DNA from: an uncultured Flavobacteriaceae bacterium
Lineage (GTDB): Bacteria; Bacteroidota; Bacteroidia; Flavobacteriales; Flavobacteriaceae
DNA: 64,000 nucleotides
Reading direction: 5' to 3'
Assembly (NCBI GenBank): GCA_947497245.1
Contig: CANMFO010000001.1
Location: forward strand, 744,001 to 808,000
In this document: positions 3,590 through 59,244 of the stretch, in pieces
Layout: every line of letters starts with the position of its first letter
Position numbering within the stretch: position 1 is the stretch's first letter
Translations under genes and position numbers: made by a program
The notes under the pieces: generated by a model
Databases searched by the model: none
What the model saw: the letters and a program-made list of their open reading frames with translations, nothing else
What the model was told of the DNA's origin: nothing

Positions 3590-4339
3590 ATGAAGCAGGA
3601 CATAAAACCACGGATACAGGGTTACGATCCCATTTCGTTGGAAGAAATGAACGGAACGGCCCTGATGAAACGGACCGATACCAAGTTCTTGGTTCCGTTG
3701 TCCCTACTGGCGCCACTATTGGCAGCGCTTGAAAGGGAGTATAGGATATTGGAGGTAAACGGAAAGCGGGTCATGCGGTATTCCTCCCTGTATTTTGATA
3801 CGGTCGACAATAGGTTCTACCACGACCACCACAATGGAAAAAACAACCGGACGAAGATCAGGATCCGAAAATATGTGGATTCTGGTCGTTGCTTTCTCGA
3901 AGTAAAGCGGAAGAACGCTAAGGGGGTAACCGATAAATCCAGAACGGCAATCCATGATTTTGAGTTCGACCTATCGGAATCGGCCATGGACTTTATTACG
4001 GAAATGACCTCACGAACCTATGATCTGACCCCCAGGATGTGGAACGACTTCAGCCGAATCACTTTGGTGAATACGGCCGAACAGGAAAGGGTCACCATAG
4101 ATTTAGGGCTTTCCTTTAGCATGGACGTGTTTGAAAAGCGCTTTGACGACCTGGTCATTGTAGAGGTAAAACAGGAGCGATTTAAAAGAAGTTCGCCCAT
4201 TGTCCAGGTGCTGAGATCGTTCAAACACCATCCGTACAGCATCAGCAAATACTGCGTTGGGATGGTGGTCCTCTACAAGGGGTTGAAGTACAACAGGTTC
4301 AAGCGAAAATTGATCAGAATAAAAAAGATAGCGAATTGA
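3590..4339 (+). CDS. VTC-domain (polyphosphate polymerase domain) protein
   Basis: VTC-domain protein of 249 residues from the ATG at 3590. An upstream in-frame start at 3566 is possible but weaker. Typical tunnel-domain features are seen: K-R-x-D-x-K-F near residue 28, YSSLYFDT, RTKIRIRKY with F-L-E-V-K-R-K (substrate-binding basic residues), and V-I-V-E-V-K-Q near the end. In yeast the domain polymerises polyphosphate. For bacterial members beside DUF4956 and CotH the substrate is not established. No signal peptide, so cytoplasmic. The next gene starts 2 bp downstream, indicating an operon. Confidence 0.85.
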   Translation: MKQDIKPRIQGYDPISLEEMNGTALMKRTDTKFLVPLSLLAPLLAALEREYRILEVNGKRVMRYSSLYFDTVDNRFYHDHHNGKNNRTKIRIRKYVDSGRCFLEVKRKNAKGVTDKSRTAIHDFEFDLSESAMDFITEMTSRTYDLTPRMWNDFSRITLVNTAEQERVTIDLGLSFSMDVFEKRFDDLVIVEVKQERFKRSSPIVQVLRSFKHHPYSISKYCVGMVVLYKGLKYNRFKRKLIRIKKIAN

Positions 4340-4341
4340 CT

Positions 4342-4944
4342 ATGGAATTTTTGGACATCCCCATTTTTGACGACGATTTTTTCAAGATGCTGTTCCGCTT
4401 TGGGATCAACATCATCTTTTTGACCCAGATCATCTGGTTCCTTTACTATAAAAAATCAAAACGAAAAGATTATCTGTTCACCTATTACATGATCAGCATC
4501 ATCGTTTTCTTCCTGTGCTTTACGCTCAAAAAGTACGAACTGGATATTGGCATGGCCCTGGGGCTGTTCGCCATTTTCGGAATTATCCGCTACCGCACCG
4601 ATCCCATTGCCATCAAGGAAATGACCTATTTGTTCGTGGTCATCGGGGTGTCCGTCATCAACGCGCTGGCCAACAGCAAGATGAGCTATGCGGAGATCAT
4701 TACCGGAAATCTGATCATCGTGATTTCCATCACCCTCATTGAAAGGTACTGGCTCCTACAACACGAAGTGTCCAAACAGATCGTCTATGAGAACATGGAA
4801 AACATTGGCCCCGAGCGGTACGCTGCACTGAAATTGGACCTGGAACGTAGGACGGGCCTTTCCATCAACAGGGTCACCATCGGGGATATCGATTTTTTAA
4901 AGGATACCGCCGTCATAACCATTTATTACTACAACGGAACCTAA
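4342..4944 (+). CDS. DUF4956 membrane protein
   Basis: Polytopic inner-membrane protein of 200 residues. Hydrophobic helices occupy about residues 15-35, 45-65, 70-90, 95-115 and 120-140, with the family signature ALGLFAIFGIIRYRTDPI after the second helix. A soluble C-terminal domain ends in AVITIYYYNGT. ATG 4342 is preferred over the TTG at 4336, which overlaps the VTC stop. DUF4956 genes are known to accompany VTC-domain genes, so the two probably form a membrane-bound complex. The biochemical role is unknown. Confidence 0.85.
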   Translation: MEFLDIPIFDDDFFKMLFRFGINIIFLTQIIWFLYYKKSKRKDYLFTYYMISIIVFFLCFTLKKYELDIGMALGLFAIFGIIRYRTDPIAIKEMTYLFVVIGVSVINALANSKMSYAEIITGNLIIVISITLIERYWLLQHEVSKQIVYENMENIGPERYAALKLDLERRTGLSINRVTIGDIDFLKDTAVITIYYYNGT

Positions 4945-7164: not shown

Positions 7165-8297
7165 AGTTCAACCTATTGAAAATACTGTTCATAGTACTGT
7201 GTTTTCAATCCGCGTTCATTTCATTCTTTCTGTTCCAGAGCAAAAAGGGAAAACGCCTGGGCAACCGTATGCTTGCCCTGGTGTTCCTGATGCTTTCCAT
7301 TGCCCTGGTCAACCTCTATTGGACGGTGTTCGGCATCGAGACCAATTTCCCGCGACTGCTCTTTATCGACGATACCTTTATGTTTGCCTATGGCCCGCTG
7401 TTGTACCTTTTCACGCAATCGGCCTTGTTCAAGGAATACCGTCTCAAAAGGTGCCACCTGTTCCATTTTATCCCGTTCCTGCTCTTTGTCTGTATCATGG
7501 TACTCCTGCTGTCGAATGTGGACCCGGAATCGCTGTACCGTTCCATGCGGCTGGCCGAAAACCAGAATATCCCATGGTATGTCAAGATCGGGGGGCTGTT
7601 GATGTTGCTCCATGTGCTGTGCTACCTCCTCCTATCGAAATGGGAGGTCAAACGTGTTCTGGACAGCGCCCTTCAATCCCGATCCACCATTGACCAGGGA
7701 CATATCAAGACGCTAAGGTTCCTGCTCAACAGCTTCATCCTGCTCTTTGGTATATCCCTGGTACATGCCTTTTTACCGTTCCTCGGCTTTAAGAACGGAT
7801 TGTTGTTCAGCCTGTTGGCCATGGTCCTCTTTCTATTTTATTTTATCAATTCGGTGGTATTGAAAATGCTGAACCGGGCCACCCAGGACAGCGGACTGAT
7901 CACCCAGACCCGTTTTGGGGCCAAGGGAAAATATGCCGCGACCAAGCTGGAACCCCAAGAACTGGAGGCCTATAAGACCAAGGTCTGGGAGTATATGGTG
8001 GCCGAGGAACGGTACCTGGACAGCGACCTAAAGATCGATGACCTGGCCCTTGAGCTCGATCTACCGCCCAAAAAACTCTCCCAAATAATCAATGAAGGCT
8101 ATTCCTGTAATTTTTTCGATTTTGTGAACAGGTTCCGGGTGGAGGCTGCCAAGGTCTTGCTCTCCAATCGGGCCGATGCCAAACGGACCGTCCTGGAAGT
8201 GTTGTACGATTCGGGCTTTAACTCCAAGTCTTCCTTCAATACCGCCTTCAAAAAGTTCACGGGGCTCACCCCGACCGAATACAAGAACCGTTTGTAA
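7161..8297 (+). CDS. membrane-tethered AraC family regulator
   Basis: 378-residue protein. The N-terminal 230 residues are seven or so hydrophobic helices (first: LLKILFIVLCFQSAFISFFL). After a basic linker, a C-terminal AraC/XylS DNA-binding domain carries DLALELDLPPKKLSQIIN (first helix-turn-helix) and VLYDSGFNSKSSFNTAFKKFTGLTP (second), the standard signature. The architecture (polytopic membrane sensor plus cytoplasmic AraC domain) is widespread in Flavobacteriia, and ligands are mostly unknown. It follows the CotH operon by 71 bp in the same direction. One of four such proteins in the window. Confidence 0.88.
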   Translation: MEFNLLKILFIVLCFQSAFISFFLFQSKKGKRLGNRMLALVFLMLSIALVNLYWTVFGIETNFPRLLFIDDTFMFAYGPLLYLFTQSALFKEYRLKRCHLFHFIPFLLFVCIMVLLLSNVDPESLYRSMRLAENQNIPWYVKIGGLLMLLHVLCYLLLSKWEVKRVLDSALQSRSTIDQGHIKTLRFLLNSFILLFGISLVHAFLPFLGFKNGLLFSLLAMVLFLFYFINSVVLKMLNRATQDSGLITQTRFGAKGKYAATKLEPQELEAYKTKVWEYMVAEERYLDSDLKIDDLALELDLPPKKLSQIINEGYSCNFFDFVNRFRVEAAKVLLSNRADAKRTVLEVLYDSGFNSKSSFNTAFKKFTGLTPTEYKNRL

Positions 8298-8376
8298 AAG
8301 CGTTCGATTTTCTGATGTCGGTCGACCGGGGGCGTTGCGTTTCGTACCCTTGCATCCAATCATAAAACATGAAGGC

Positions 8377-9093
8377 ATGCAACGATTAAGACAACTATTA
8401 CAAACGAACAAATGGGCCAAAACAATGGAATTGATCCTAGTTTTTTTGGTCGCGGGCATCATCATCAAAATTTTTGTAAAACCGGACAACGATGCCCTGA
8501 TCTATAACCAGGCCGTGGTCTGGGTGGCCAATGTGGTCATGTTGGCCCTGGTATGGGCGGGCCTGAAGCTCCGAGGCGAAGATGTAGGGCACTTTGGCCT
8601 GGGTCTTAAAAAAGTGGGCCCGAAAGAGGCCTTGCGGGTATTTCTGTGGTCGTTGTTGGTCTTTGTGCTGGCCTTGGCGGGCTTTGTTGTGGGGTCGATC
8701 ATCATGGCGAACCTTTTAGGCGTTCCCGAAAATGCAGATATGGGGGGCTATGCCTTTTTGAAGGACAACCTGGGGATGCTCATTTTGTCCTGTGTCGGGG
8801 TCTATATCGTTTCTTCCTTTGGGGAAGAAGTGGTCTATAGGGCGTTTCTGATCAACCGTATTTCCGAACTGGGCTGGGGCGGCAAAAAGGGGGAGGGCAT
8901 TGCGGTGGTCATCAGTGCTATTGTCTTTGGCCTGGCCCACTATAGCTGGGGACCTATGGGAATTGTACAAACGGCCTTTATGGGCCTGGTGTTGGGGCTG
9001 TGCTATGTGGCCCTGAAAAAAAGGCTCTGGATCTTGGTTTTGGCACACGTCTATCTGGACACCCTGTTGCTGCTCCAAATATACTTTGCATAG
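8377..9093 (+). CDS. CPBP family intramembrane glutamic protease
   Basis: 238-residue polytopic membrane protein starting at ATG 8377. The frame is open upstream but lies over the preceding gene. The CPBP/Rce1 signature is present: GEEVVYRAFLINRI (motif 1, EExxxR, about residues 148-161), FGLAHYSWG (motif 2, with the catalytic-site His) and the late LAHVYLDT histidine (motif 3). Family members are glutamate-type intramembrane proteases or CAAX-protease-like immunity factors. No bacteriocin gene is nearby, so its substrate is unknown. It converges on the regulator gene at 9153. Confidence 0.85.
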   Translation: MQRLRQLLQTNKWAKTMELILVFLVAGIIIKIFVKPDNDALIYNQAVVWVANVVMLALVWAGLKLRGEDVGHFGLGLKKVGPKEALRVFLWSLLVFVLALAGFVVGSIIMANLLGVPENADMGGYAFLKDNLGMLILSCVGVYIVSSFGEEVVYRAFLINRISELGWGGKKGEGIAVVISAIVFGLAHYSWGPMGIVQTAFMGLVLGLCYVALKKRLWILVLAHVYLDTLLLLQIYFA

Positions 9094-9152
9094 TGCGGGG
9101 AGAGAGCGGCAAGAAGGGAATCTCGCCCACTTTTTTATAAGATGGCACCCGG

Positions 9153-10451
9153 CTAACGATCAAAGGCATCCTCGAATACGGCCCTTCCCTGGGCATCGGA
9201 AAGTCTGGCGTGGTCGATGGAGCCGGTACCGTCAAAGATATACGTCAGCCCCATGATCTTGCCAAAGTCCTCTCCAAAGGTTTCCGAATAGGCCAATTGC
9301 CCGTTTATCCGGATCTCTGCATGTTTGTTCTTGACCCTGATACCAATTTCCTGCCAATCGTACAGGTCCTGCCCCAATAGGGAAAGGTCGTTGTCCTTTC
9401 CATTTCGGGTGATTTCCCCCATTTTGTACGCCCCATGGATCTCGCAGCCCTTTCGGACCATGTCAACATAAAAGATGTGCTTTTCGGTGACGATGTACAC
9501 CTTGAACCAGGGACAGTTGGAATCGACGACTCGATCGACCTTGGCGCGGGTCATAAAATCAAAATTGTTGGAAGAGATCCCGAACACCTCGCTCAAGGTC
9601 ACCCGGGTGATAAAACGTTTTGAGAGGTCCACGTTCCGTTTCCGGAGCAGTTGCTCGGACAGCTGCAATTGCCCATCGGCGATATAGGACTCTCCCATGA
9701 AATCGATGAACCGTTCATCGGACGAGCTGTAATAGGAGTGGGCCTCCCATCCATCGCTGAGGATATGTATGGGCTGTTGGGCAACAACGCTGTCGTTGGC
9801 AATGAGCCGCGCCCGGTGGTAGCCCGATTCGTAATAAATGCTGGAAAAGACCGTTTTGGCCGGGTCTATCCTCTCCCTCCGCCAAACGTTCCAGGACTGT
9901 TGGATAAAAAAGCTGTCGGCCTCGATATGGGACACATTGTACTTGAAAATGGAGGTGACCGGTACCCCCTTGAACCGGGTCTTGTCCGCTGTAAAGGTTA
10001 TGGGACCGTTTACGACCACCCCGCTATGGTTGGGAACGGGATCATTTCGGGTATATAGGACGAGCAAGGGCACTGCGGCCAGGACGAGGAATGGCAGGCC
10101 TATCTTCCACCATCTGTGCCCAAGGGGCCCTTGCATGGGCCAGGAACCCCGGCCCAGTGCCCGTTGAGAGGTCGTGTTTCCCTTGTTCCGCAATTTGAAG
10201 TGCTGCCAATTGTCATAATCGAGCACACTGACCAGTGCATTGAGGGTGGCCAGTTGGGGGCCTTGCTTGAAATCGTTCTTCCAAAGCCGTTTCAAGGTCG
10301 ATAGGCTGATGTACACCCCTTTTTCGGTTTCGATGTAATTGGAAAGGAGTTCCAGGTCTTTTTGGGTATGTCCGTTCCCGTTTCCGAAAGAAAACTTTTC
10401 TTCCAGCTGCTTTTTACAGAGTTCTATATAATCGGTTTCCGAATACGGCAT
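9153..10451 (-). CDS. single-pass membrane regulator with periplasmic beta-domain (module copy 1)
   Basis: 432 residues, unnamed family. Residues 1-90 form a helical, DNA-binding-like domain with the motif LSTLKRLW (50-57) and NWQHF (81-85). One membrane helix follows at about 114-134. A PKD-like strand region (FIQQSWNV; YYESGYHRARL) and a C-terminal LamG-like part (IRVKNKHAEIRINGQ...GSIDHARLSDAQG) should be periplasmic. It aligns along its whole length with the protein encoded at 26299-27558, with STLKR/TTLKR and NW at identical residue numbers. It is divergent from the secreted protein gene at 10588, with 136 bp between starts. A role as a one-component transmembrane regulator of that gene is inferred. 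Confidence 0.7.
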   Translation of the reverse strand: MPYSETDYIELCKKQLEEKFSFGNGNGHTQKDLELLSNYIETEKGVYISLSTLKRLWKNDFKQGPQLATLNALVSVLDYDNWQHFKLRNKGNTTSQRALGRGSWPMQGPLGHRWWKIGLPFLVLAAVPLLVLYTRNDPVPNHSGVVVNGPITFTADKTRFKGVPVTSIFKYNVSHIEADSFFIQQSWNVWRRERIDPAKTVFSSIYYESGYHRARLIANDSVVAQQPIHILSDGWEAHSYYSSSDERFIDFMGESYIADGQLQLSEQLLRKRNVDLSKRFITRVTLSEVFGISSNNFDFMTRAKVDRVVDSNCPWFKVYIVTEKHIFYVDMVRKGCEIHGAYKMGEITRNGKDNDLSLLGQDLYDWQEIGIRVKNKHAEIRINGQLAYSETFGEDFGKIMGLTYIFDGTGSIDHARLSDAQGRAVFEDAFDR

Positions 10452-10495
10452 CGTAGCGCAAATTTAATCCAAATCGAGGTAAAATGGCACGCTGT

Positions 10496-10572
10496 CCAAA
10501 GAATGACCCAACTTTGACCGGCTTAAGACCTACTTTAAAACGGGTACTTCGCAGAGTGATGGATATCTTTGG
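10496..10572. promoter_or_regulatory. divergent promoter region of module copy 1
   Basis: A rightward -7 box TATCTTTG (10564-10571) fits TAnnTTTG and ends 16 bp before the start at 10588. CCAAAGA (10496-10502) and TCTTTGG (10566-10572) form an inverted pair 63 bp apart. The second module copy has a comparable CAAAG/CTTTG pair in its gap. A leftward TAAATTTG also occurs close to the regulator start. Confidence 0.4.
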
Positions 10573-10587
10573 CAAAAACATAAAATC

Positions 10588-11223
10588 ATGCAATCAATCA
10601 CGAACACTTTAATGGTGCTGTGCCTGATGGGTACGGCAGTTGTACACGCACAATCGGGAAATGGTCTGGAAATGGACCCCGAAAACTGGTCGGTCTATAA
10701 CCGGGAGGTATCCTTTGATGGGGGAACGGCACATTTGAATGCCAAGGCAAACGATGGGCTGTTGTGGCTCAAGGACGCCCCATTTAAAAACGGTACGATA
10801 GAACTCGACATCAAGGGAAGGGACACCCCAGGGAGAAGTTTTGTCGGGCTGGCCTTTCACGGTCGGGACAATGAGACCTTTGACGGGGTCTATTTCCGCC
10901 CGTTCAACTTTAAGAACCCACAGAAGAAATCGCACGCCATCCAGTACATCGCGATGCCTGAAAACGATTGGTCCAGCTTGCGCAAGGCTTTTCCCGGAAA
11001 ATATGAGAGCAGTATGGATCCGGTTCCGGAAGTGGTCGACGATTGGTTCCATGTGAAGGTGGTGGTCGACCATCCCAAAGTTACGGTCTACGTCAATGGA
11101 TCCAGTTCCCCGACCCTGGGGATAGAACAGATCAGTACAAGAAAGACTGGCAAGGTCGGTTTTTGGGTGGGCAACGGCTCGGAAGGCTGGTTCAAGAATC
11201 TAAAAATTACGGAAAGCCATTAA
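10588..11223 (+). CDS. secreted LamG / DUF1080-like protein (module copy 1)
   Basis: 211 residues with a signal peptide (cleavage after VHAQ, about residue 22). The rest is a concanavalin-like jelly roll: FKNGTIELDIKG, GLAFHGRDNETFDGVYFRP, DDWFHVKVVVDHPKVTVYVNG and the closing strand WFKNLKI. This pattern matches DUF1080 (3-keto-disaccharide hydrolase) and LamG domains. Catalytic residues cannot be assigned. It is homologous to the N-terminal half of the protein at 27684. Both are divergent from paralogous membrane regulators, so it is probably the regulated target or the signal-binding partner. Followed by three 22-bp tandem repeats. Confidence 0.72.
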   Translation: MQSITNTLMVLCLMGTAVVHAQSGNGLEMDPENWSVYNREVSFDGGTAHLNAKANDGLLWLKDAPFKNGTIELDIKGRDTPGRSFVGLAFHGRDNETFDGVYFRPFNFKNPQKKSHAIQYIAMPENDWSSLRKAFPGKYESSMDPVPEVVDDWFHVKVVVDHPKVTVYVNGSSSPTLGIEQISTRKTGKVGFWVGNGSEGWFKNLKITESH

Positions 11224-48904: not shown

Positions 48905-49402
48905 GTGAAAAAGTTTGAAAAAATGGCACCCATCCCGGATAGCCTTGGTCTAAAGTGGTTTGGCCGTTGGTCGGCATTGCTTGTCGGCCTCTGCCTACAG
49001 GTGGGTTGCCTAGAAAAGGATAGCCAGACTCAAAAGGTACAGGCCGTCATCCATGAACTGATTGAAGCGGACAATAACTCGGATATTGAAACGGTATTGG
49101 GGGCATATACGGACAGTGTGGAGTTCTATCCAACAGGGGGTAGGTTCACCAAGGGCATTCAAAATGTAAGGGCGAATTACAACGATCTTTTCCTGAACTA
49201 CGATCTTTCTTTGGAGACCGAGATTTTAGAGGCCCGAATCATGGGGGACAACGCCATGGTCACCGGTATCAATACCGGGACAAAAAGGAGCATTGCCGAT
49301 TCCTCCACGACCAAGATCCACGATAAGTACATCGCCATTTTGATCTTGGGTCCCAAAGGGAACTGGAGAATAGATAAACTGATCTGGGGACCGGCCCATT
49401 GA
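48905..49402 (+). CDS. SnoaL-like / NTF2-fold lipoprotein
   Basis: 165 residues beginning with GTG 48905. A later ATG at 48923 is also possible. A lipoprotein signal ends LVGLCLQVGCLEKD (Cys near 35). The remainder fits a SnoaL/DUF4440 NTF2-fold: VIHELIEADNNSDIETVLGAYTDS, VEFYPTGGRFTKG, NAMVTGINTGTKRS, YIAILILGPKGNWRIDKLIW. No active-site residues can be assigned. It lies alone after the TonB group. CTATCTT/AAGATAG inverted sequence occurs in its upstream gap. Confidence 0.75.
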   Translation: MKKFEKMAPIPDSLGLKWFGRWSALLVGLCLQVGCLEKDSQTQKVQAVIHELIEADNNSDIETVLGAYTDSVEFYPTGGRFTKGIQNVRANYNDLFLNYDLSLETEILEARIMGDNAMVTGINTGTKRSIADSSTTKIHDKYIAILILGPKGNWRIDKLIWGPAH

Positions 49403-49564
49403 TCAAGAGGGACGAATCGGGAACTGCGGTGGAAACCAAACGGCATTACTGTAAAATAACACAACTTTAATAAACAGGATATTTCCACATTTCGACTAAA
49501 TACGGTTTCCGATTCAAAAAGGGCGACACTGGTCTACCTTATTGCACTGGGTGTTGCCATTCTT

Positions 49565-50299
49565 TTGCAGGCAGGGCATTACGTGTTTTACTATAAACAG
49601 GAAGTTTTCATTTCCTTCGTTTGGTCGTTGGTGGACTGGAACCTTTGGTTTTTAATGTTCCTCGCCCTCTTTTATTGCAAACTGTATTTTGTAAATTTTA
49701 GCTCATGGACCAAAAGAAAACGGGCTGTTTTAATTGCGGTCGGCCTGTTCTTTCCGATTTTACATGTTTTGTTCTCAAAACTTGTTTTTCTGTTGATCTT
49801 TGAGCCTAGCCGCTCTTTTGGTGCGGATATCCTCCGGCAATTCTCAAAAAAATGGTTTCAGAATATTTTTATTGGACTGGGGCTCTTTTTTCTGTTCGAT
49901 TATGCCAAGGCATATTTTTTACGGACGTATCGGCCCATAGGGCGTACGGGATTGCAAACCAAGGGCGGTCCAGATCAATTGTGGGTCAAGGAGGGCCGGT
50001 CCAAATACCAACTGTTCCCCAATGAAATAGTGTGGGTGGAATCCGCCAAGAATTATGTGGTGCTATGTACCCAGGCTGGAGAACAGCGTGTTATCCGAAA
50101 AACCATCACCTCCATGAACGATGTCCTCGAACCTTACAATTTCGTGAGGGTAAGCCGTTCTGCCCTGGTAAACAAAGACTATGTCCAGGTGATCAAAAAG
50201 CGGACAAAATACTCTTTTTCCGTTATCACCCGATCCGGAAAAGCGTTTCCCATTGGAAGGACCTATTTAAAAAATGTACTTTCCCGTATCGATCCGTGA
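49565..50299 (+). CDS. membrane LytTR family regulator, start codon unclear
   Basis: 244 residues if begun at TTG 49565. Three or four membrane helices (SFVWSLVDWNLWFLMFLALFY, AVLIAVGLFFPILHVLF, WFQNIFIGLGLFFLFDYAK) are followed by a LytTR domain (LFPNEIVWVESAKNYVVLC, FVRVSRSALVNKDYVQVI, AFPIGRTYLKNVL). The frame is open upstream to 49460 and reads like the missing first helix (TLVYLIALGVAILL), yet contains no ATG, GTG or TTG before 49565. So the true start is either non-standard (ATT at 49481 is in frame) or was lost by mutation. Confidence 0.75.
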   Translation: MQAGHYVFYYKQEVFISFVWSLVDWNLWFLMFLALFYCKLYFVNFSSWTKRKRAVLIAVGLFFPILHVLFSKLVFLLIFEPSRSFGADILRQFSKKWFQNIFIGLGLFFLFDYAKAYFLRTYRPIGRTGLQTKGGPDQLWVKEGRSKYQLFPNEIVWVESAKNYVVLCTQAGEQRVIRKTITSMNDVLEPYNFVRVSRSALVNKDYVQVIKKRTKYSFSVITRSGKAFPIGRTYLKNVLSRIDP

Positions 50300-50361
50300 G
50301 GACTTTCCTCCCATAAATAGCGACGTTCATACCAAATCGGCAAATGGCTCCAACAAATAGG

Positions 50362-50398
50362 GGATTATTGAAATAATTTAGGGGCATATCAATAATCC
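50362..50398 (+). promoter_or_regulatory. 10-bp perfect inverted repeat before epimerase-like gene 1
   Basis: GGATTATTGA (50362-50371) and TCAATAATCC (50389-50398) are perfect reverse complements with a 17-nt loop. They end 7 bp before the ATG at 50406, so an RNA hairpin would cover the ribosome-binding region. Confidence 0.55.
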
Positions 50399-50405
50399 GT
50401 ATCCC

Positions 50406-51344
50406 ATGGACAAAAGAGATTTTTTAAAAACCTTTTCGGCTTTGTTGGTTTTGGCCACCGCCCCAAAAATATTGTACGGCCGCCCGGTCATGGCCAAAAA
50501 GAAAGTATTGGTTCTCGGAGGGAGGAACTTTATAGGCCCCAGTATTGTGCAACTGTTCCAGGGAGCGGGCTGGGAGGTAACCCTGCTCAACAGGGGTAGA
50601 ACAAACCCACATCTCTTCCCAGAATTACCGATCATTATATGCGATAGGGAAAAAGAGGACCGCCAAGACTTGCAAAAAGTAAGCGCAAGAATCAAAAATA
50701 CGTACTGGGACGCGGTCGTCGACACCTGGCAGAAGTCACCAAAGGCGGTCTTCGATTTTATAGATATGTTCCGGGACCATATTGGCCATTACCACTATGT
50801 GTCCTCAGTTTCGGTCTATGATAGTTGGGCTGAAAAGGGCATTGATGAATCCGGCCGATTGAATCCCACTCCCGAATTCCCGCGGACCATAGGGGAAAAT
50901 TACCGGTATGCCATTAGAAAGACGCTGTCGGAAAAGACGATTATGGCGCATATGGAGAACTACACGATCTACCGTTCCCATGGTATGCGGGATTTTCGGA
51001 CCCCGGACCACTCCAATCCGAACGAAGAGAACTATTGGCCCATTCGGTTTGCCCGGGGAGGGGAAATCCTGGTCCCCGATGCCAAAGATCACTATTACCA
51101 GATCACCGATGTTCAAAGCTTGTGCAAATTCATGCTGACCTGTACGGAAAATAAAACCTACGGTGCCTACAATGTGGCCTACAGGCCGATAAAATTCAAA
51201 ACCTACATCCGCCGTTTGGGCAAGGTGGCGCACAAACCCAAAAGATTGATCTGGATACCCGGGGACTTCCTGATAAAAAGTGGAATTCGGCCCTACAGGG
51301 ATGTTTCGGCCTGGAAGCTTATGTCCTTAAACTGCTCACCATAG
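50406..51344 (+). CDS. exported NAD-dependent epimerase-like protein, C-terminus disrupted by inversion
   Basis: As it stands 312 residues. The N-terminus (MDKRDFLKTFSALLVLATAP) resembles an export signal without a full twin-arginine. A Rossmann fold follows: VLVLGGRNFIGP, YVSSVSVYD and YAIRK (Y-x3-K), as in extended SDR enzymes. After Trp303 the reading frame enters an inverted 179-bp segment and stops after nine unrelated residues. Flipping 51315-51493 gives a 381-residue ORF ending at 51551. The closest relative in the window is the 379-residue protein at 52965-54104. The present form lacks about 78 C-terminal residues and is probably inactive. Confidence 0.8.
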   Translation: MDKRDFLKTFSALLVLATAPKILYGRPVMAKKKVLVLGGRNFIGPSIVQLFQGAGWEVTLLNRGRTNPHLFPELPIIICDREKEDRQDLQKVSARIKNTYWDAVVDTWQKSPKAVFDFIDMFRDHIGHYHYVSSVSVYDSWAEKGIDESGRLNPTPEFPRTIGENYRYAIRKTLSEKTIMAHMENYTIYRSHGMRDFRTPDHSNPNEENYWPIRFARGGEILVPDAKDHYYQITDVQSLCKFMLTCTENKTYGAYNVAYRPIKFKTYIRRLGKVAHKPKRLIWIPGDFLIKSGIRPYRDVSAWKLMSLNCSP

Positions 51345-51493
51345 CGAAGGGAATCGTCTGGATATCGACTTTGGTACCCCGCGATTTGATCTTGAAACAG
51401 CTCCTCCAGGGGCCGGTTGACCAGACCATGTCCTTCGGCCTTATCGACACTGAAGTGATACGAACCGGCGGGCTCAAGCGTTGGAGGTCTTTC
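51315..51493 (-). other. inverted 179-bp segment inside epimerase-like gene 1
   Basis: On the minus strand this segment encodes 59 codons (beginning ERPPTLEPAG, containing YHFSVDKAEGHGLVNRP and SLRYGEQFKDIS) that align with the C-terminal region of the paralogue at 52965-54104 (HTISAEKAIAAGLVFTP). Immediately right of it, on the plus strand, 51494-51551 encodes FMQREKELIAAWRTSKEKQ-stop (the first base of F at 51494), matching the paralogue's C-terminal REKELELLQIWAAK. Re-inverting joins left, middle and right in one frame. Only a 5-bp TGGAA inverted match is found at the ends, one base out of register with the in-frame joint. Confidence 0.8.
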
Positions 51494-51581
51494 CATGCAA
51501 AGGGAAAAGGAACTCATCGCAGCGTGGCGGACATCAAAAGAAAAACAATGAGCTCCGTTGACACGGACGAAACAAACACGC

Positions 51582-52655
51582 TTATCTTTCGGTACTTGCT
51601 GTCTCCATATAGGTGTTCGGGGTCATTCCAGTATACTTTTTAAAGGATTCAAAAAACGTGGATTTTGATTTAAATCCCGATCGATGGCCCAATCCAACAA
51701 TGGTCAAGTGGTCCAATGATGCATCCAACAAGTATTTTTTTGCCGCTTCCACCCTCCAGTAATTGATGAAATCATTGAATCCGATATTGATGTCCTGATT
51801 TATCAGGACAGAAAGCGCATTTTTTCGAATCCCATAAAGCTGCGCCAGTTTGCCCAGGTCCAGCCCGGGATCGAGGTAGGGTTTTTGATCCTCCATGAAG
51901 GAGATCAGTTGGGCGACTTGGGCGTTTTCCCATAGAATGGCCGGGTCGAACTTGACCGCGACGAGCTTGGGGGAAATCTCCTTTAAATAAGATTTTCCCC
52001 CAAGCATCATTTTAAGGGTCATCCTATAGAACATTGCCGAAACGAGCACATATGGGATAGTGGCCGCACCGAACCCGAATACCGGAAAGGAGTACTTGAC
52101 GAGGCCTGCGATCAACAGTGGAACGAATAAAAAAGGGACCACAACCTTAAAAAGTCGCCGTTTGTACCTTTTCACCTTGGCTTTGGGCATGCCCAGACCG
52201 AAGTCATGTTTTTGTATCAGGACCAGGGAGACCATAGCATACAGCATGGTCAGTGATAGGACCGCATAGGACTTGTTGAAAACGGGATCGGCCCCCTTCA
52301 CAAAGCCCGCCACCATGAAGTAAAGCACAGGAACAAAATGGAACACTTTCAGGCGGCCCCACTTGGTATCGGCTAAATTCAGTTTTTGCAAGGTGTGCAA
52401 ATAGATGAGGGGTCCCAACATTAACAAGAGCGTGTCGGACAGTAGGGGAATGGTCGTGTGCTCATGAAGGAAATCGGTCTTGATGAACGGATAGACCATC
52501 AGCCGGAGGGCGAGGACAAAAAAAATCAATGGAAAAGCCAAATTTTCCCTATCTGCTAGATACTGCCTTAGGAACAAAATGAAAAAAAGTAGACTTTGTG
52601 CCCCTCCGATCAGCAATATCAATTGGATTGTCGAGAAATCGATGGAATATATCAC
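51582..52655 (-). CDS. membrane-tethered AraC family regulator
   Basis: 357 residues starting with GTG at 52655. Seven or so N-terminal helices (STIQLILLIGGAQSLLFFIL first) precede the C-terminal AraC domain (LGKLAQLYGIRKNALSVLIN; GLGHRSGFKSKSTFFESFKKYTGMTP). It lies between the two epimerase-like genes and converges on the first. Possibly regulates the second gene, from which it is divergent. The ligand is unknown. Confidence 0.87.
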   Translation of the reverse strand: MIYSIDFSTIQLILLIGGAQSLLFFILFLRQYLADRENLAFPLIFFVLALRLMVYPFIKTDFLHEHTTIPLLSDTLLLMLGPLIYLHTLQKLNLADTKWGRLKVFHFVPVLYFMVAGFVKGADPVFNKSYAVLSLTMLYAMVSLVLIQKHDFGLGMPKAKVKRYKRRLFKVVVPFLFVPLLIAGLVKYSFPVFGFGAATIPYVLVSAMFYRMTLKMMLGGKSYLKEISPKLVAVKFDPAILWENAQVAQLISFMEDQKPYLDPGLDLGKLAQLYGIRKNALSVLINQDINIGFNDFINYWRVEAAKKYLLDASLDHLTIVGLGHRSGFKSKSTFFESFKKYTGMTPNTYMETASTER

Positions 52656-52964: not shown

Positions 52965-54104
52965 ATGAAAAGACGAAATTTTGTAAAGCTCACCGGCGCA
53001 TCTTCCCTAATGCTGTGTATGACATCCCTGACCGTAGCGACGGGGACAAAAAAAAGATTGAATATCCTCGTTTTGGGAGGCACCAATTACCTGGGACCTG
53101 CTGTCGTGGACATCGCCCTGGCCAATGGACATAGGCCCACTTTGTTCAACAGGGGCATTACCAACCCCCATTTGTATCCGGAAGTTGAGAAATTGATCGG
53201 TGACAGGAACGTGGATAGCGAAAATTTGAGCGCTTTGGACGGGAATCGCAAATGGGACCTGGTCATTGATACATGGCCGGCCGATCCAAGGATGGTTGAA
53301 CGTACGGCAAAGCTGTTGAAAGGTCGTACGGAGGCCTATGCCTTCATTTCCTCCATCGTAGTTTATAAGGATTTGACCCAGATGGGCCTTACCGAGACCG
53401 CAGCGCTTCGTGACGTAGGGGAGTTCGTTCCGGGAATGTCGTATCATGAGTCAAAGGTACTTTGCGAAAGGGTGGTTAGGGAAACTTTTTCCCAAAACCA
53501 TCTCATCCTACGCCCTCCCGGAATATTTGGAAAACGCGACGAGAGCTGGTCGTTCGTGTACTGGTTGTGGCGCATTCGCGCCGGTGGGCCCGTCATGGCG
53601 CCAGGCGATGGCTCCGATTGCGTCCAATGGATCGATGTGACCGATGTTGGGAGCTTCATGCTACATGCCCTCGAAAGCGGACAATACGGAACCTATAATA
53701 CCATTGGACCTGAAAAGGATCCACTACTTTTTAGGGACTACCTGAAACGCATCAATGAACATTACGGCAACAAAGCGGAACTGGTTTGGGTAAACGAGGC
53801 ATTTATCAAAGCGAACCAGCTTATGCCCATAGTGGACATTCCCATATGGGAACCCAAAAGCCGAAGGGCCGGCCGGCACACCATAAGTGCGGAAAAAGCA
53901 ATAGCCGCGGGTTTGGTATTTACCCCCATGGAACGGACTTTTGAGAGTGCATTGAATTGGTACGACCGGGTAAAATCCCCTACATACGATCCAGGATTGG
54001 ACAAAAATCGGCCCTACAACGGAATCACCCGGGAAAAGGAATTGGAACTCCTGCAGATTTGGGCGGCCAAGAGTTCACCAAAGAACGAGAAACGAATGGA
54101 ATAA
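52965..54104 (+). CDS. exported NAD-dependent epimerase/dehydratase-like protein 2
   Basis: 379 residues from ATG 52965, which begins a twin-arginine-type signal (MKRRNFVKLTGASSLML). Extended SDR features follow: Rossmann motif ILVLGGTNYLGP, AFISSIVVY, the catalytic Y-x3-K in YHESK, and RPPGIFGKRDESWSF, WIDVTDVG in the C-terminal half. The nucleotide sugar or other substrate is unknown, and a Tat route would carry it out with NAD bound. It is the intact paralogue of the gene at 50406. Upstream open frame to 52746 is rejected. Confidence 0.83.
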   Translation: MKRRNFVKLTGASSLMLCMTSLTVATGTKKRLNILVLGGTNYLGPAVVDIALANGHRPTLFNRGITNPHLYPEVEKLIGDRNVDSENLSALDGNRKWDLVIDTWPADPRMVERTAKLLKGRTEAYAFISSIVVYKDLTQMGLTETAALRDVGEFVPGMSYHESKVLCERVVRETFSQNHLILRPPGIFGKRDESWSFVYWLWRIRAGGPVMAPGDGSDCVQWIDVTDVGSFMLHALESGQYGTYNTIGPEKDPLLFRDYLKRINEHYGNKAELVWVNEAFIKANQLMPIVDIPIWEPKSRRAGRHTISAEKAIAAGLVFTPMERTFESALNWYDRVKSPTYDPGLDKNRPYNGITREKELELLQIWAAKSSPKNEKRME

Positions 54105-54199: not shown

Positions 54200-54955
54200 A
54201 TGAAGACCAGAAATTTTGTAGCCCTTACCCTGTCCATTGCCATTCTACTGGCGGTATTGATTTATTGGAGGGAATACACCACTCGGGAACAGGTAGCACC
54301 CTACCGTGTACTGCTTTGGCAATTGTTGATATGGCTGCCCTGGATCCTTGGGTTCAAGGGAATGCAACGCCTGATCCCAGTAGCACGGAAAACCTCCTTT
54401 GGAAAGGTTTGGATATTGGGTGCGGCCCTGATAGGGGTGGTTTTCCATTATGGATGGTTCTTTCTTTTGAGCAACACGGTCAGCCCGTACCTACATCTGC
54501 CCGGCTCCAGGTTCGGGGTATACCGCTACTTCTTTATCTTCTGGACCTTGATAGACATTGGCCTGATGTGGTTCGTCATAGACAAACTGTGGAAGGGGGA
54601 AAGGGAAGAAATGCCCCGACCCGTATTGTTCGAACTTACCAGGGGAAAGAACAAATACTTTTGCGAGGCCCCGCAAATCCATCTGCTGGCCGCAGAGAAT
54701 TACTACACCCGACTGTTTACGGCCGAAGGGGTCTTTCTTATGCGGAAACCCTTGAAATATTTCCATGACTTGTTGCCCGGGAACATGTTCAGAAAGATCC
54801 ATCGCTCGACCATTATCAACGTCAACGAGGTGTCCGAACTGGCCAAGGGCCAGGACCATGGCCTGGAGGTGATCATGAAAGATGGTACCCGGCGTAGGGT
54901 CAGCAGAAACTATGTCAAGGAAATCACCCATTTTTTTAAAGATCGCGCCCATTAG
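54200..54955 (+). CDS. membrane LytTR family regulator
   Basis: 251 residues. Four membrane helices (FVALTLSIAILLAVLIYW, LLWQLLIWLPWILGF, VWILGAALIGVVFHYGWFFLL, YFFIFWTLIDIGLMWFVI) precede a LytTR DNA-binding domain (IHLLAAENYYTRLFTAEG, MFRKIHRSTIINVNEVSEL, RRVSRNYVKEITHF). No histidine kinase gene is adjacent. It lies between the epimerase-like gene and the molybdenum hydroxylase operon and might control either. Confidence 0.87.
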   Translation: MKTRNFVALTLSIAILLAVLIYWREYTTREQVAPYRVLLWQLLIWLPWILGFKGMQRLIPVARKTSFGKVWILGAALIGVVFHYGWFFLLSNTVSPYLHLPGSRFGVYRYFFIFWTLIDIGLMWFVIDKLWKGEREEMPRPVLFELTRGKNKYFCEAPQIHLLAAENYYTRLFTAEGVFLMRKPLKYFHDLLPGNMFRKIHRSTIINVNEVSELAKGQDHGLEVIMKDGTRRRVSRNYVKEITHFFKDRAH

Positions 54956-55027: not shown

Positions 55028-55088
55028 ATGTAGGGCTTACAAGGTCCGATATCCAAAATATATGCCCCCTAGGGCTAAAAACCTGTAC

Positions 55089-55559
55089 ATGGCCATGCCG
55101 TCCTATACCATAACGATCAACAATGTTAAAAAAAATGTTTCCGCCGATCCGGATACCCCTTTATTGTGGATCATACGGGACCTACTGGAATTGACCGGAA
55201 CCAAATTTGGTTGTGGAAAAGGCCTCTGCGGTGCCTGCACCGTGCATTATCAAGGCCAGCCGGTCCGTTCGTGCACCCTACCCATCAACGCTGCCCTGGA
55301 CGGAGGCATTACTACGATTGAAGGACTGTCGGAACAGCAAAGTCACCCCGTACAACAGGCCTGGATGGAACTGGACGTACCACAGTGCGGCTACTGCCAA
55401 TCCGGTCAGATCATGGCTGCGGCTTCCCTGCTCTCCAAAAATGAAAATCCCACGAACGACGATATCGAGGCCGCGATGGAAGGCCATCTTTGTCGCTGCG
55501 GTACCTATTCCCGGATACGCGAGGCCATTCAACTGGCGGCAACCAAAAAAAAGAAATGA
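55089..55559 (+). CDS. [2Fe-2S] subunit of molybdenum hydroxylase (IorA/CoxS type)
   Basis: 156 residues from ATG 55089. An ATG at 55095 (MPSYTI) is equally possible. The N-terminal plant-type cluster motif [14 protein letters not shown] (Cys ligands 1-3, a fourth in RSCTLP) and the second, helical cluster motif CGYCQSGQ...[12 protein letters not shown] are both complete. It passes electrons between the molybdenum centre and an external acceptor. No FAD subunit is present, as in isoquinoline 1-oxidoreductase-type enzymes. The next gene overlaps its stop (ATGA). Confidence 0.88.
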
Positions 55560-57055
55560 TGCGGGTGGGGATATTACTTCTATGGATAGGTGTTTTCCTG
55601 AAATCCCACGGACAGGAACTTCGGTTCGAACGCGACACGGCCTTCGCAGAGCTTCAGGGCTCCCGAGGGGTTTCGATAGCTGATCTTGACGGCAATGGAT
55701 GGAACGATATCGCAGTGGCCAACCAGGTGGATTCCGTCGGGCTCCTGGGAAACACCATTTATTTTAATCAGGGAACCAGTTTTCGGAAATCGGCGATCGC
55801 CCATGGCATTGTGGATGCCTGGAGCGAATCGGTCCATACCGTGGATGTGGACAACGATCATGATCTCGATCTCTTTTTCACCACCCAGTTCGGCACGCCC
55901 AACCTACTGTACCTGAACGATGGTGCCGGCAACTTTTCCCCGGGAGGGGCCGGGAAGCTCGTAACGGACCGTACCAATTCACCCGGCGCCTGTTGGTGCG
56001 ATTATGACGGGGATGGCGATCTGGATGTCTTTGTGGTGAATAGGGATGGTGCCGATGATCAACTTTATATCAACAATGGGCAAGGCACTTTTTCCAAAAA
56101 GGCCAAGGGCCCATGGATCGGTAACAAAGGGGACGGAAGATCTTGTGCCTGGGGCGACCTCAATGGCGATGGCCGGCCCGATCTGTATGTGGCCAATTTT
56201 GTGATGAAGAGGTCGGGGCAGGTGACCGGAAAACACCGGAACTACTTGTACTTGAACAATTCGGACGGAAGCTTTACAGAGCAGCGCAGGGGTGTCCTGG
56301 TCGAGGAAACGCATGCTTCCTATGGCGTTTCCTTTGTAGATTATGACTATGACAGGGACCTGGATATCTATGTGACCAATGTATCGGTCGCCGATGAAAA
56401 TGCCCTATACCAAAACTCGGGCACCGGATGGTTCACCAAGTTGACGGACCATACCGTGGCATATGAGGTCCACCGCCCATCCAAGGGGCAGACCTGGGGC
56501 GATTTTGACAATGACGGCAGTTTGGATCTTTACGTGGCGAATGGCACCGAAGGTTATCCAGAGATCCAGAATTTTTTCTTTGTGGGCGGGAAGGATGGTT
56601 CCTTCAAAAGGGTTTACCGCAGTTTGCCGGCCATTGAGGGCCATATTTCTGCCGGCACCGCCTCCGGGGACTTGGACAATGATGGGTTTTTGGACCTGTT
56701 TGTGTGCAATTGGGGAGGTGAGGCGGAAGCCAACGACGGTTACATGAACCAAACCCAGGGCAACCAATGGGTGAAACTGCATTTGAAGGGAACTACATCG
56801 AACAGCTATGGTATCGGAAGTTGGGTAACGCTGACCCTGGAGGACGGTACGGTACAGACGCGGTATTGTGCCAGGGAAACTGGATATGGAAGCGAGAACG
56901 CCCCGGAGATCCATTTTGGTCTGGGCGCTTCCGCCGAGATAAGGTCCCTGAAAATTGAATGGCCTTCCGGACGTAAACAAACGGTCACGGAGGTAGTCCC
57001 GAATACGGTGTACCAGATAATCGAAGGAAAAGAACTCAAACGCATCGGGTCATGA
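55556..57055 (+). CDS. FG-GAP/VCBS propeller with ASPIC/UnbV domain, inside hydroxylase operon
   Basis: 499 residues from ATG 55556, overlapping the previous stop by 4 bp. Signal peptide ([15 protein letters not shown]). Seven calcium-binding D-x-D-x-D-G-x-x-D type motifs are seen ([56 protein letters not shown]), fitting a seven-bladed propeller. The C-terminus is an ASPIC/UnbV domain ([35 protein letters not shown]-like). CRTAC1-type proteins are secreted. It sits between the two hydroxylase subunit genes, which is unusual, and probably acts in the same process. Confidence 0.85.
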
Positions 57056-59244
57056 AAAGCAAATTGCACAGAAGGACATTTATGAAATTGACCACTGTGG
57101 CCAGTGGCGCATTGATAGCCGGGGTATACCTACAATCTTGTGGGGCGGACCATCCTCTGGCCACGGAGCACGTCTTCTCGCCCTTGATAAAGATCGATAC
57201 GGAGGGTTGGGTGACCCTCATTGCCAAAAATCCTGAGATCGGGCAAGGCGTCAAAACGGCGCTTCCCATGATCTTGGCTGAGGAACTTGGGGCGGCTTGG
57301 GACAAGGTAAGGGTAGTGCAGGGCGATTACGATACGGCTTATGAGGAACAATGGGCCGGGGGCAGCTACGCCATCATCCTGAACTGGGACCTGATGCGGA
57401 CAGCGGGCGCCAAGGTACGGCAGGTACTGCTTCAGGTGGCGGCAAAACGGATGGGCAAGGCGGTATCTGAGCTTTCTACCCGCAATGGGGAGGTACAGCA
57501 TGTGAAATCCGGAGAGACCCTGCCTTTCGGAGCGCTACTGGCCGAAGCCTCAAAAATACCCTTGCCGGAAACCGTGGAATTCAAACCCATGGATGCGTTT
57601 GAGATTGTGGGGAAAAGGATTCCCCAGATCGACCTCGATCAATTGGTAAACGGAGAAATGCAATATGGCATCGATATCAAATTGCCGGGAATGGTCTATG
57701 CCACGGTCCTGAAAAATCCCGTATTCGAAGGCGGATCCGGTACCTGGGACGCCACGCGGGCAAGGGCCGTAAACGGGCTGATCGATATCCTGGAACTGGA
57801 CAACAAAACCTATGGGGGCCGGCTCCTGGCTTCCAACAGTCCGAATTTTGTAAACGGTATTGCCGTCGTGGCCAACTCTACCTGGGCGGCCTTTAAGGCG
57901 GCCGGGGAGTTGGAGGTCAGCTGGGACGAAACAGGTACCAGAAAAGAGAATACCGATGGAATCTTCGAGCGTTTTCGTGCCCAGTTGGACGATACCATGA
58001 TCGAACGGGAAGATGGTGATATCGCCGCCGCAAGGCGCAAGGCGGCATCCAACTACGAAGCGGTATATGAAGTCCCTTTTTTGGCGCATGTACCCATGGA
58101 ACCGATGAACTGTACGGTAGATTTTAGGGAAGATGGCTGCGAGGTTTGGGCCCCAACGCAAAACCCCGAAGCACTACAGAAGGGTTTGATCAAATTGTTC
58201 GGGTTGGCACCGGAACAGATCAAAATACACCTTCCCCGGATCGGGGGCGCCTTTGGCAGGCGATACTATGTGGATTACGCCATGGATACGGCCATCTTGT
58301 CCAAAAAAATGGGCCGACCGGTAAAGCTCACCTGGACCCGGGAAGCGGACATCCAGCACGATTGGTACCGTCCGGCGAGCGTACACAAAATGGAGGCGTC
58401 CCTCAATGGGAACGGGCAGGTAACGGGATGGCGACATGTTTTGGCCAACGCCTCCCGCAAAACCTCTTTGGGAAGGGAGGGCCGACCCGCTGGGACCGAA
58501 ATAGACCCCTATGAGTTCCCTGCGGGCTTTGTTCCCGACCTCCGACTGGAGTACGGACATGTATTGAGCGATGTTCCCTTGGGACAGTGGCGTGCTGTGG
58601 GCCATTCTGCCACCGCATTTGCGGTCCATAGCTTTTTGGACGAATTGGCCCACTGGAATAAAAGGGACCCTATGGACTATTTTCTGGAGTTCTTGGGTCC
58701 GGCAAGAATGGTTCCTGTCGTGGACGACTATGCCTTCGATGCGGGCCGATCGATCGCGGTGGTGGAAAAGGTAAGACAGCTCAGCAACTGGGGTTCACCC
58801 TTGCCTGCGGGTCAGGGCCGGGGCTTTGCGGCCTGCAAGGGTGCCGGATCCTTTGTGGCCGAGGTGGTCACTGTATCCGTGGGTACCAATGGAAAAATAC
58901 GGATCGTGCGGGTGGATGCCGTGGTCGACTGTGGCATTGTCGTCAACCGATCAGGAGCGGAGGCACAGGTGGAGGGCGGTATCCTGGAGGGCCTCAGTGC
59001 GGCGCTTTACGGCGAAATAACCGTACAGGACGGTACTGCGGAACAGTCCAATTTTCACGATTATCGTTGGATGCGTATGGGCGAAACGCCCGAAATGCAT
59101 ATTGAATTTATCCAGAACGACCTGCCCCCCCGTGGTCTCGGCGAGCCCCCCTTGCCACCAGCGGCCCCAGCATTGGCCAATGCCATCTTTGCCGCAACGG
59201 GGCAGCGGATAAGGAAATTGCCCATACGGAAGATTGAACGATAA
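57052..59244 (+). CDS. molybdopterin-binding subunit of aldehyde/xanthine-type hydroxylase (IorB type)
   Basis: 730 residues, the usual length of IorB-like subunits that contain two fused repeats. A twin-arginine signal (RRTFMKLTTVASGALIAG) followed by a possible lipoprotein Cys (LQSCG) places it in the periplasm. The cofactor segments are visible: NPEIGQGVKTALPMILAEEL, GGAFGRR (about 396), the RPVKLTWTREADIQHD block, RVDAVVDCGIVVN, and GLGEPPLPPAAPALANAI with the catalytic Glu. Substrates of this family include N-heterocycles and aldehydes. Overlaps the previous gene by 4 bp. No maturation (XdhC/CoxI) gene is in the window. Confidence 0.88.
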   Translation: MKSKLHRRTFMKLTTVASGALIAGVYLQSCGADHPLATEHVFSPLIKIDTEGWVTLIAKNPEIGQGVKTALPMILAEELGAAWDKVRVVQGDYDTAYEEQWAGGSYAIILNWDLMRTAGAKVRQVLLQVAAKRMGKAVSELSTRNGEVQHVKSGETLPFGALLAEASKIPLPETVEFKPMDAFEIVGKRIPQIDLDQLVNGEMQYGIDIKLPGMVYATVLKNPVFEGGSGTWDATRARAVNGLIDILELDNKTYGGRLLASNSPNFVNGIAVVANSTWAAFKAAGELEVSWDETGTRKENTDGIFERFRAQLDDTMIEREDGDIAAARRKAASNYEAVYEVPFLAHVPMEPMNCTVDFREDGCEVWAPTQNPEALQKGLIKLFGLAPEQIKIHLPRIGGAFGRRYYVDYAMDTAILSKKMGRPVKLTWTREADIQHDWYRPASVHKMEASLNGNGQVTGWRHVLANASRKTSLGREGRPAGTEIDPYEFPAGFVPDLRLEYGHVLSDVPLGQWRAVGHSATAFAVHSFLDELAHWNKRDPMDYFLEFLGPARMVPVVDDYAFDAGRSIAVVEKVRQLSNWGSPLPAGQGRGFAACKGAGSFVAEVVTVSVGTNGKIRIVRVDAVVDCGIVVNRSGAEAQVEGGILEGLSAALYGEITVQDGTAEQSNFHDYRWMRMGETPEMHIEFIQNDLPPRGLGEPPLPPAAPALANAIFAATGQRIRKLPIRKIER

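Follow-up and report, generated by a model that had tools for sequence, protein, structure and literature searches.

We suggest that a single event very probably reversed, without moving it, a segment of about 155 bp (51321-51475) of an epimerase-like gene. This would be a one-off microinversion that inactivated an extended-SDR-like protein, its joints sharing at most 4 nt of inverted microhomology. Positions throughout are those of the window, by which we mean the whole 64,000-nucleotide stretch of flavobacterial DNA that was analysed. The features on which the argument turns are the following.

49565-50299, plus strand: LytTR-type regulator gene, upstream of the epimerase-like gene (PF04397, 3e-18)
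50406-51344, plus strand: epimerase-like gene in its current frame, 312 residues, the last seven (after W303-K-L) read from the reversed segment
50406-51320, plus strand: 5' part of the epimerase-like gene, up to W303-K-L, in the original orientation, with an NAD-binding epimerase domain and an N-terminus that looks signal-like by eye
51317-51320, plus strand: left arm (GCTT) of a 4-nt inverted repeat, a mirror-complementary run at the inferred left breakpoint
51321-51475, minus strand: inverted 155-bp segment, whose minus strand codes for what the orthologues carry directly after W-K-x
51476-51479, plus strand: right arm (AAGC) of the same mirror-complementary run
51480-51551, plus strand: displaced 3' gene end with its stop, recognised by the tail profile, in the original orientation and not reached by the current frame
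52965-54104, plus strand: intact paralogue, 379 residues, about 29% identical

As it stands, the frame that opens at 50406 runs for 312 codons to a stop at 51344; it consists of residues 1-305 followed by seven residues read from reversed DNA, and it is without residues 306-381 of the reconstruction described below. Its 5' part carries a Pfam Epimerase match (PF01370) on residues 34-258 (E 1.8e-7; 31.3 bits against a gathering cut-off of 20.9), and is 66% identical in amino acids over 302 residues to the closest orthologue, L005, while the current frame, beyond residue 305, has none of the C-terminal part that orthologues of this extended SDR / NAD-dependent epimerase type possess. The N-terminus, read by eye, suggests that the product is exported. 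No NCBIfam model scored above its curated cut-off on the gene, on its paralogue or on the orthologue in L005, no solved relative was found by sequence at 1e-5, and no RNA family was detected in 49400-52000.

The comparison draws on nine orthologous loci. Six, at 50-66% identity (L005-L010), came from a scan of the genome collection, and a search of 397 genomes of the family, one per species, gave matches at 1e-36 in seven; apart from the window's own, three of these stood at 1.2e-89 or better (L011-L013). Named relatives of the gene belong to Allomuricauda, Aquimarina and one Flavobacteriaceae MAG. Since the L013 protein is identical to that of L009, and since L006-L008 (mutually 92-95% identical) and L009/L010 (90%) are close kin, the eight distinct proteins amount to about five lineages. 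All nine loci are uninverted, each a single open frame of 369-395 residues. Five further loci (L003, L004 and L014-L016), 27-30% identical to the reconstruction, served as outgroup rows only and are not counted as orthologues. In a set of 60 genomes that comprised 59 relatives besides the window's own, the latter alone passed 1e-40, and at E 1e-30 none of nine other genomes of the genus matched either the gene at 50406 or the neighbouring AraC-type regulator.

With regard to the surroundings, two LytTR-type regulators (49565-50299 and 54200-54955) flank the pair of epimerase-like genes, one each, and an AraC-type regulator (51582-52655, minus strand) lies between the two, a layout that suggests a duplicated regulator-enzyme pair. 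A relative of the upstream LytTR-type gene (52% identity) is found at L005:4169-4879, just upstream of the orthologue at L005:5001. Two paralogues in this genome share 31% identity with the front part of the gene. Another epimerase-like paralogue, L004, lies near the start of contig 2 (G000:C2:684-1550). Close to the two Aquimarina orthologues L006 and L007, relatives of the window's TonB-receptor-like gene (33%; 8270-10837 and 8258-10834) and of its AraC-type regulator (27-28%; 3663-4724 and 3665-4726) occur in a gene order that differs from that of the window. Farther downstream, 55062-59244 holds genes for a [2Fe-2S] protein, an FG-GAP/ASPIC-UnbV protein and a molybdopterin-binding oxidoreductase, the FG-GAP/ASPIC-UnbV gene in the middle and, as listed from a TTG start, overlapping the end of the [2Fe-2S] protein gene.

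An internal inversion of the epimerase-like gene is well supported by profiles that were built from the eight distinct orthologues and run against the 2215 six-frame stop-to-stop segments of at least 15 residues in the window; the reconstruction helped to decide which columns each profile should span, but it contributed none of the residues. The middle profile matched the minus strand, where the match runs from 51475 to 51329 (E 2.3e-23), one of only two segments among the 2215 at E ≤ 0.5, the second being the paralogue at 0.072. The tail profile matched the plus strand at 51480-51533 (E 2.3e-4) and nothing else at E ≤ 0.5. When the entire C-terminus was made into one profile, both pieces were recovered (1.8e-21 and 6.3e-4); the tail match then began at 51471, a few bases short of the right end that we assign to the reversed segment. 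The order is therefore front (plus), middle (minus) and tail (plus), an inversion in place: compared with its relatives the segment is reversed where it lies, its flanks are unchanged, and the three pieces contain no further stop or frameshift. Several elements of the preliminary description are upheld: the frame stops nine codons past Trp303; the homologous stretch that it lacks is on the minus strand, and the end that it lacks is on the plus strand further right; inverting the segment opens a frame of 381 residues that closes at 51551; and the paralogue has 379 residues.

The recovery of an open frame carries little weight of its own. Among the 72 window ORFs of at least 150 aa, a set in which real genes are not separated from chance ORFs, 57 gain at least 60 codons by some inversion of 100-299 nt with 4-nt repeat ends. 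Restoring a frame by inversion is cheap, and for that reason the case rests on homology; a test of window ORFs by frame alone was set aside as uninformative. Residue conservation bears on the age of the event. Of the positions that never vary among the eight distinct orthologues, the front part retains 95 of 99, the inverted part 13 of 14 and the tail 2 of 2, with similar numbers when each orthologue was tested in turn. Because the inverted part keeps all but one of its invariant residues, the event looks recent; the absence of decay would be expected either from a recent event or from a sequence still selected in its other orientation.

To place the breakpoints, we generated inversions with the left end in 51290-51349 and the right end in 51430-51544, and scored the 1249 distinct proteins of more than 370 residues that resulted against one profile built from the nine orthologous loci. 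The nine best share one common centre (a+b = 102796). Inverting 51317-51479, which yields the same sequence as inverting 51321-51475, scores 594.0 bits against 498.9 for the gene as it stands; 51322-51474 scores 595.5, which is 1.5 above the chosen ends, and by profile score alone any left end between 51315 and 51331 would differ by no more than about 7 bits, provided that the right end shifts with it. The GCTT/AAGC repeat was used to choose among these near-equal ends, which are placed to the base by protein alignment instead of by an ancestral sequence of the same species. The best reading, so qualified, is a 155-bp inversion (51321-51475) flanked by the two arms of a 4-nt inverted repeat. 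With this centre the joints become WKLEPAG and KDISVGGLSMQ, and ...VSAWKLEPAGSYHF... and ...FKDISVGGLSMQREK... align gap-free with VSAWKPNPKGSYHF and NKGIKVGGFSMEKER of L005.

An inversion of exactly 179 bp, with ends at 51315-51493, had been proposed earlier. These ends score 574.1 bits (rank 154 of the 1250 scored, 20 below the best-supported choice), and would leave the left joint with four residues more, and the right joint with four fewer, than L005. The tail begins within that segment, since its match starts on the plus strand at 51480 (or 51471), and the proposed ends are off by 6 and 18 bases. The TGGAA/TTCCA pair remarked on at the same time is present (51312-51316/51491-51495), but its involvement is contradicted: inverting there shifts the middle to another frame, and as an inversion site the pair belongs to another centre.

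At the best centre the longest exact repeat is the 4-nt mirror-complementary run. A run of at least 4 nt would be met by chance in 6% of cases within the plausible span (1.8% for exactly known ends), so that the repeat fits microhomology but is no proof of it. A longer imperfect repeat around the joints was sought and rejected, the gapped alignment score being reached by 72% of random pairs (P 0.72). GCTT stands at both joints in none of the nine orthologous loci, L005 having it at the left joint only; the longest repeats shared by the orthologue joints measure 3-5 nt, which is chance level, given that 65% of random pairs reach at least 4 nt and 22% at least 5.

These properties bear directly on the foremost rival explanation, an improbable one in our judgement, that the segment is an intragenic inverton which a recombinase flips back and forth, so that proteins of 381 and 312 residues alternate. 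Invertons carry repeats recognised by a recombinase, and the assignment requires, at both ends, an inverted repeat long enough for a site-specific enzyme; the intragenic kind, a reversible recombinase-made switch, was reportedly defined in a Nature paper of 2024. Like such elements, the present segment is inverted within a coding gene and alters the C-terminus of the product, and all three pieces of the gene are undecayed. Unlike them, it has a single orientation in the assembly and only a near-chance 4-nt repeat, with gapped arms no better than random and with no particular repeat maintained across orthologues. Recombinases exist in the genome, yet none of its two PF00239 (serine) and ten PF00589 (tyrosine) matches falls in the window (C1:744001-808000); a recombinase gene is often, though not always, seen near an inverton. 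This last is a weak point, because invertases and other recombinases can act from a distance. In a survey that grouped invertons by their repeats, 952 of the 1837 invertons of one gut community intersect coding sequence, although those of Bacteroidota are mainly intergenic (PMC11892184). The preliminary description had allowed a one-off inactivating event, which we retain, but had held a programmed switch to be just as likely, which we do not: the near-chance repeat, found at both joints in no orthologue, together with the lack of a recombinase match in the window and a product without its conserved part, favours a one-off event. A reversible switch operating on a repeat of only 4 nt, through a novel flipping activity or a very relaxed recombinase, and thereby turns the epimerase-like protein on and off, is still less probable.

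We give a comparably slight chance to an artefact of assembly or sequencing that conceals an intact gene in the organism. A clean break free of further decay is what an artefact would also produce, and there is a single assembly, of 34 contigs, to consult. Against this, the joints have no long repeat, the 451-bp region around them (51200-51650) occurs once in the genome, and that genome (5.25 Mb) is scored 99.91% complete and 0.12% contaminated.

If a one-off microinversion did take place, its outcome would be a 312-residue protein without the conserved C-terminal part, most likely an inactive one. The AlphaFold2 model of the L005 orthologue (mean pLDDT 68.8, with five stretches below 50, 295-310 and 346-362 among them) places helices at 316-320, 328-342 and 364-379, within the part lost here and with mixed confidence there. 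Its nearest solved folds, which we take to be extended-SDR enzymes, are those of cinnamoyl-CoA reductases and of sugar epimerases (best E 6.9e-12; TM 0.55, normalised by query length). The least likely of the explanations we weighed, that the 312-residue form works and has been selected, the gene not being broken at all, could appeal to the fully kept epimerase domain match and the undecayed front part, but it has to contend with the loss of 14 + 2 positions at which the eight distinct orthologues do not vary and of the three modelled helices (mixed confidence there), and with a replacement of seven residues read from reversed DNA.

We posit that the flip of this one-off microinversion was made by break repair or by polymerase template switching, and that no site-specific recombinase took part. 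The genome gave no Ku match (the control search was positive in one of 14 named genomes, that of Bacillus subtilis), which speaks against classical end joining. Among better-known systems, the microinversions that separate human and chimpanzee offer a likeness: a segment reversed in place, with an inverted repeat of a few nucleotides at its edges, though in the present gene that repeat is near chance. In the published study they span 17-33 nt with flanking repeats from 3 nt upward, and microhomology-mediated break-induced replication was proposed for them, the authors doubting template switching where repeats are 3-4 nt (PMC8755829). The present case differs in its length of 155 bp and in lying in a bacterial coding gene, and carrying the primate mechanism over to this bacterium is an inference on our part. 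A second likeness is to template-switch inversions in yeast, where a stretch of coding DNA between the arms of an inverted repeat is flipped; the yeast spacers measure 2-5 bp and the arms more than 9 bp, against 155 bp and 4 nt here (PMC8604942).

Should the segment prove to switch after all, the need of such switches for long inverted repeats would come into doubt. An open frame after inversion is weak evidence alone, as the ORF control indicates, and breakpoints are better set with homologues. Read as a one-off event, the gene would provide a clean bacterial example of likely gene loss through an in-place microinversion of about 155 bp, of a kind that in gene-caller output would look like nothing more than a truncated gene.
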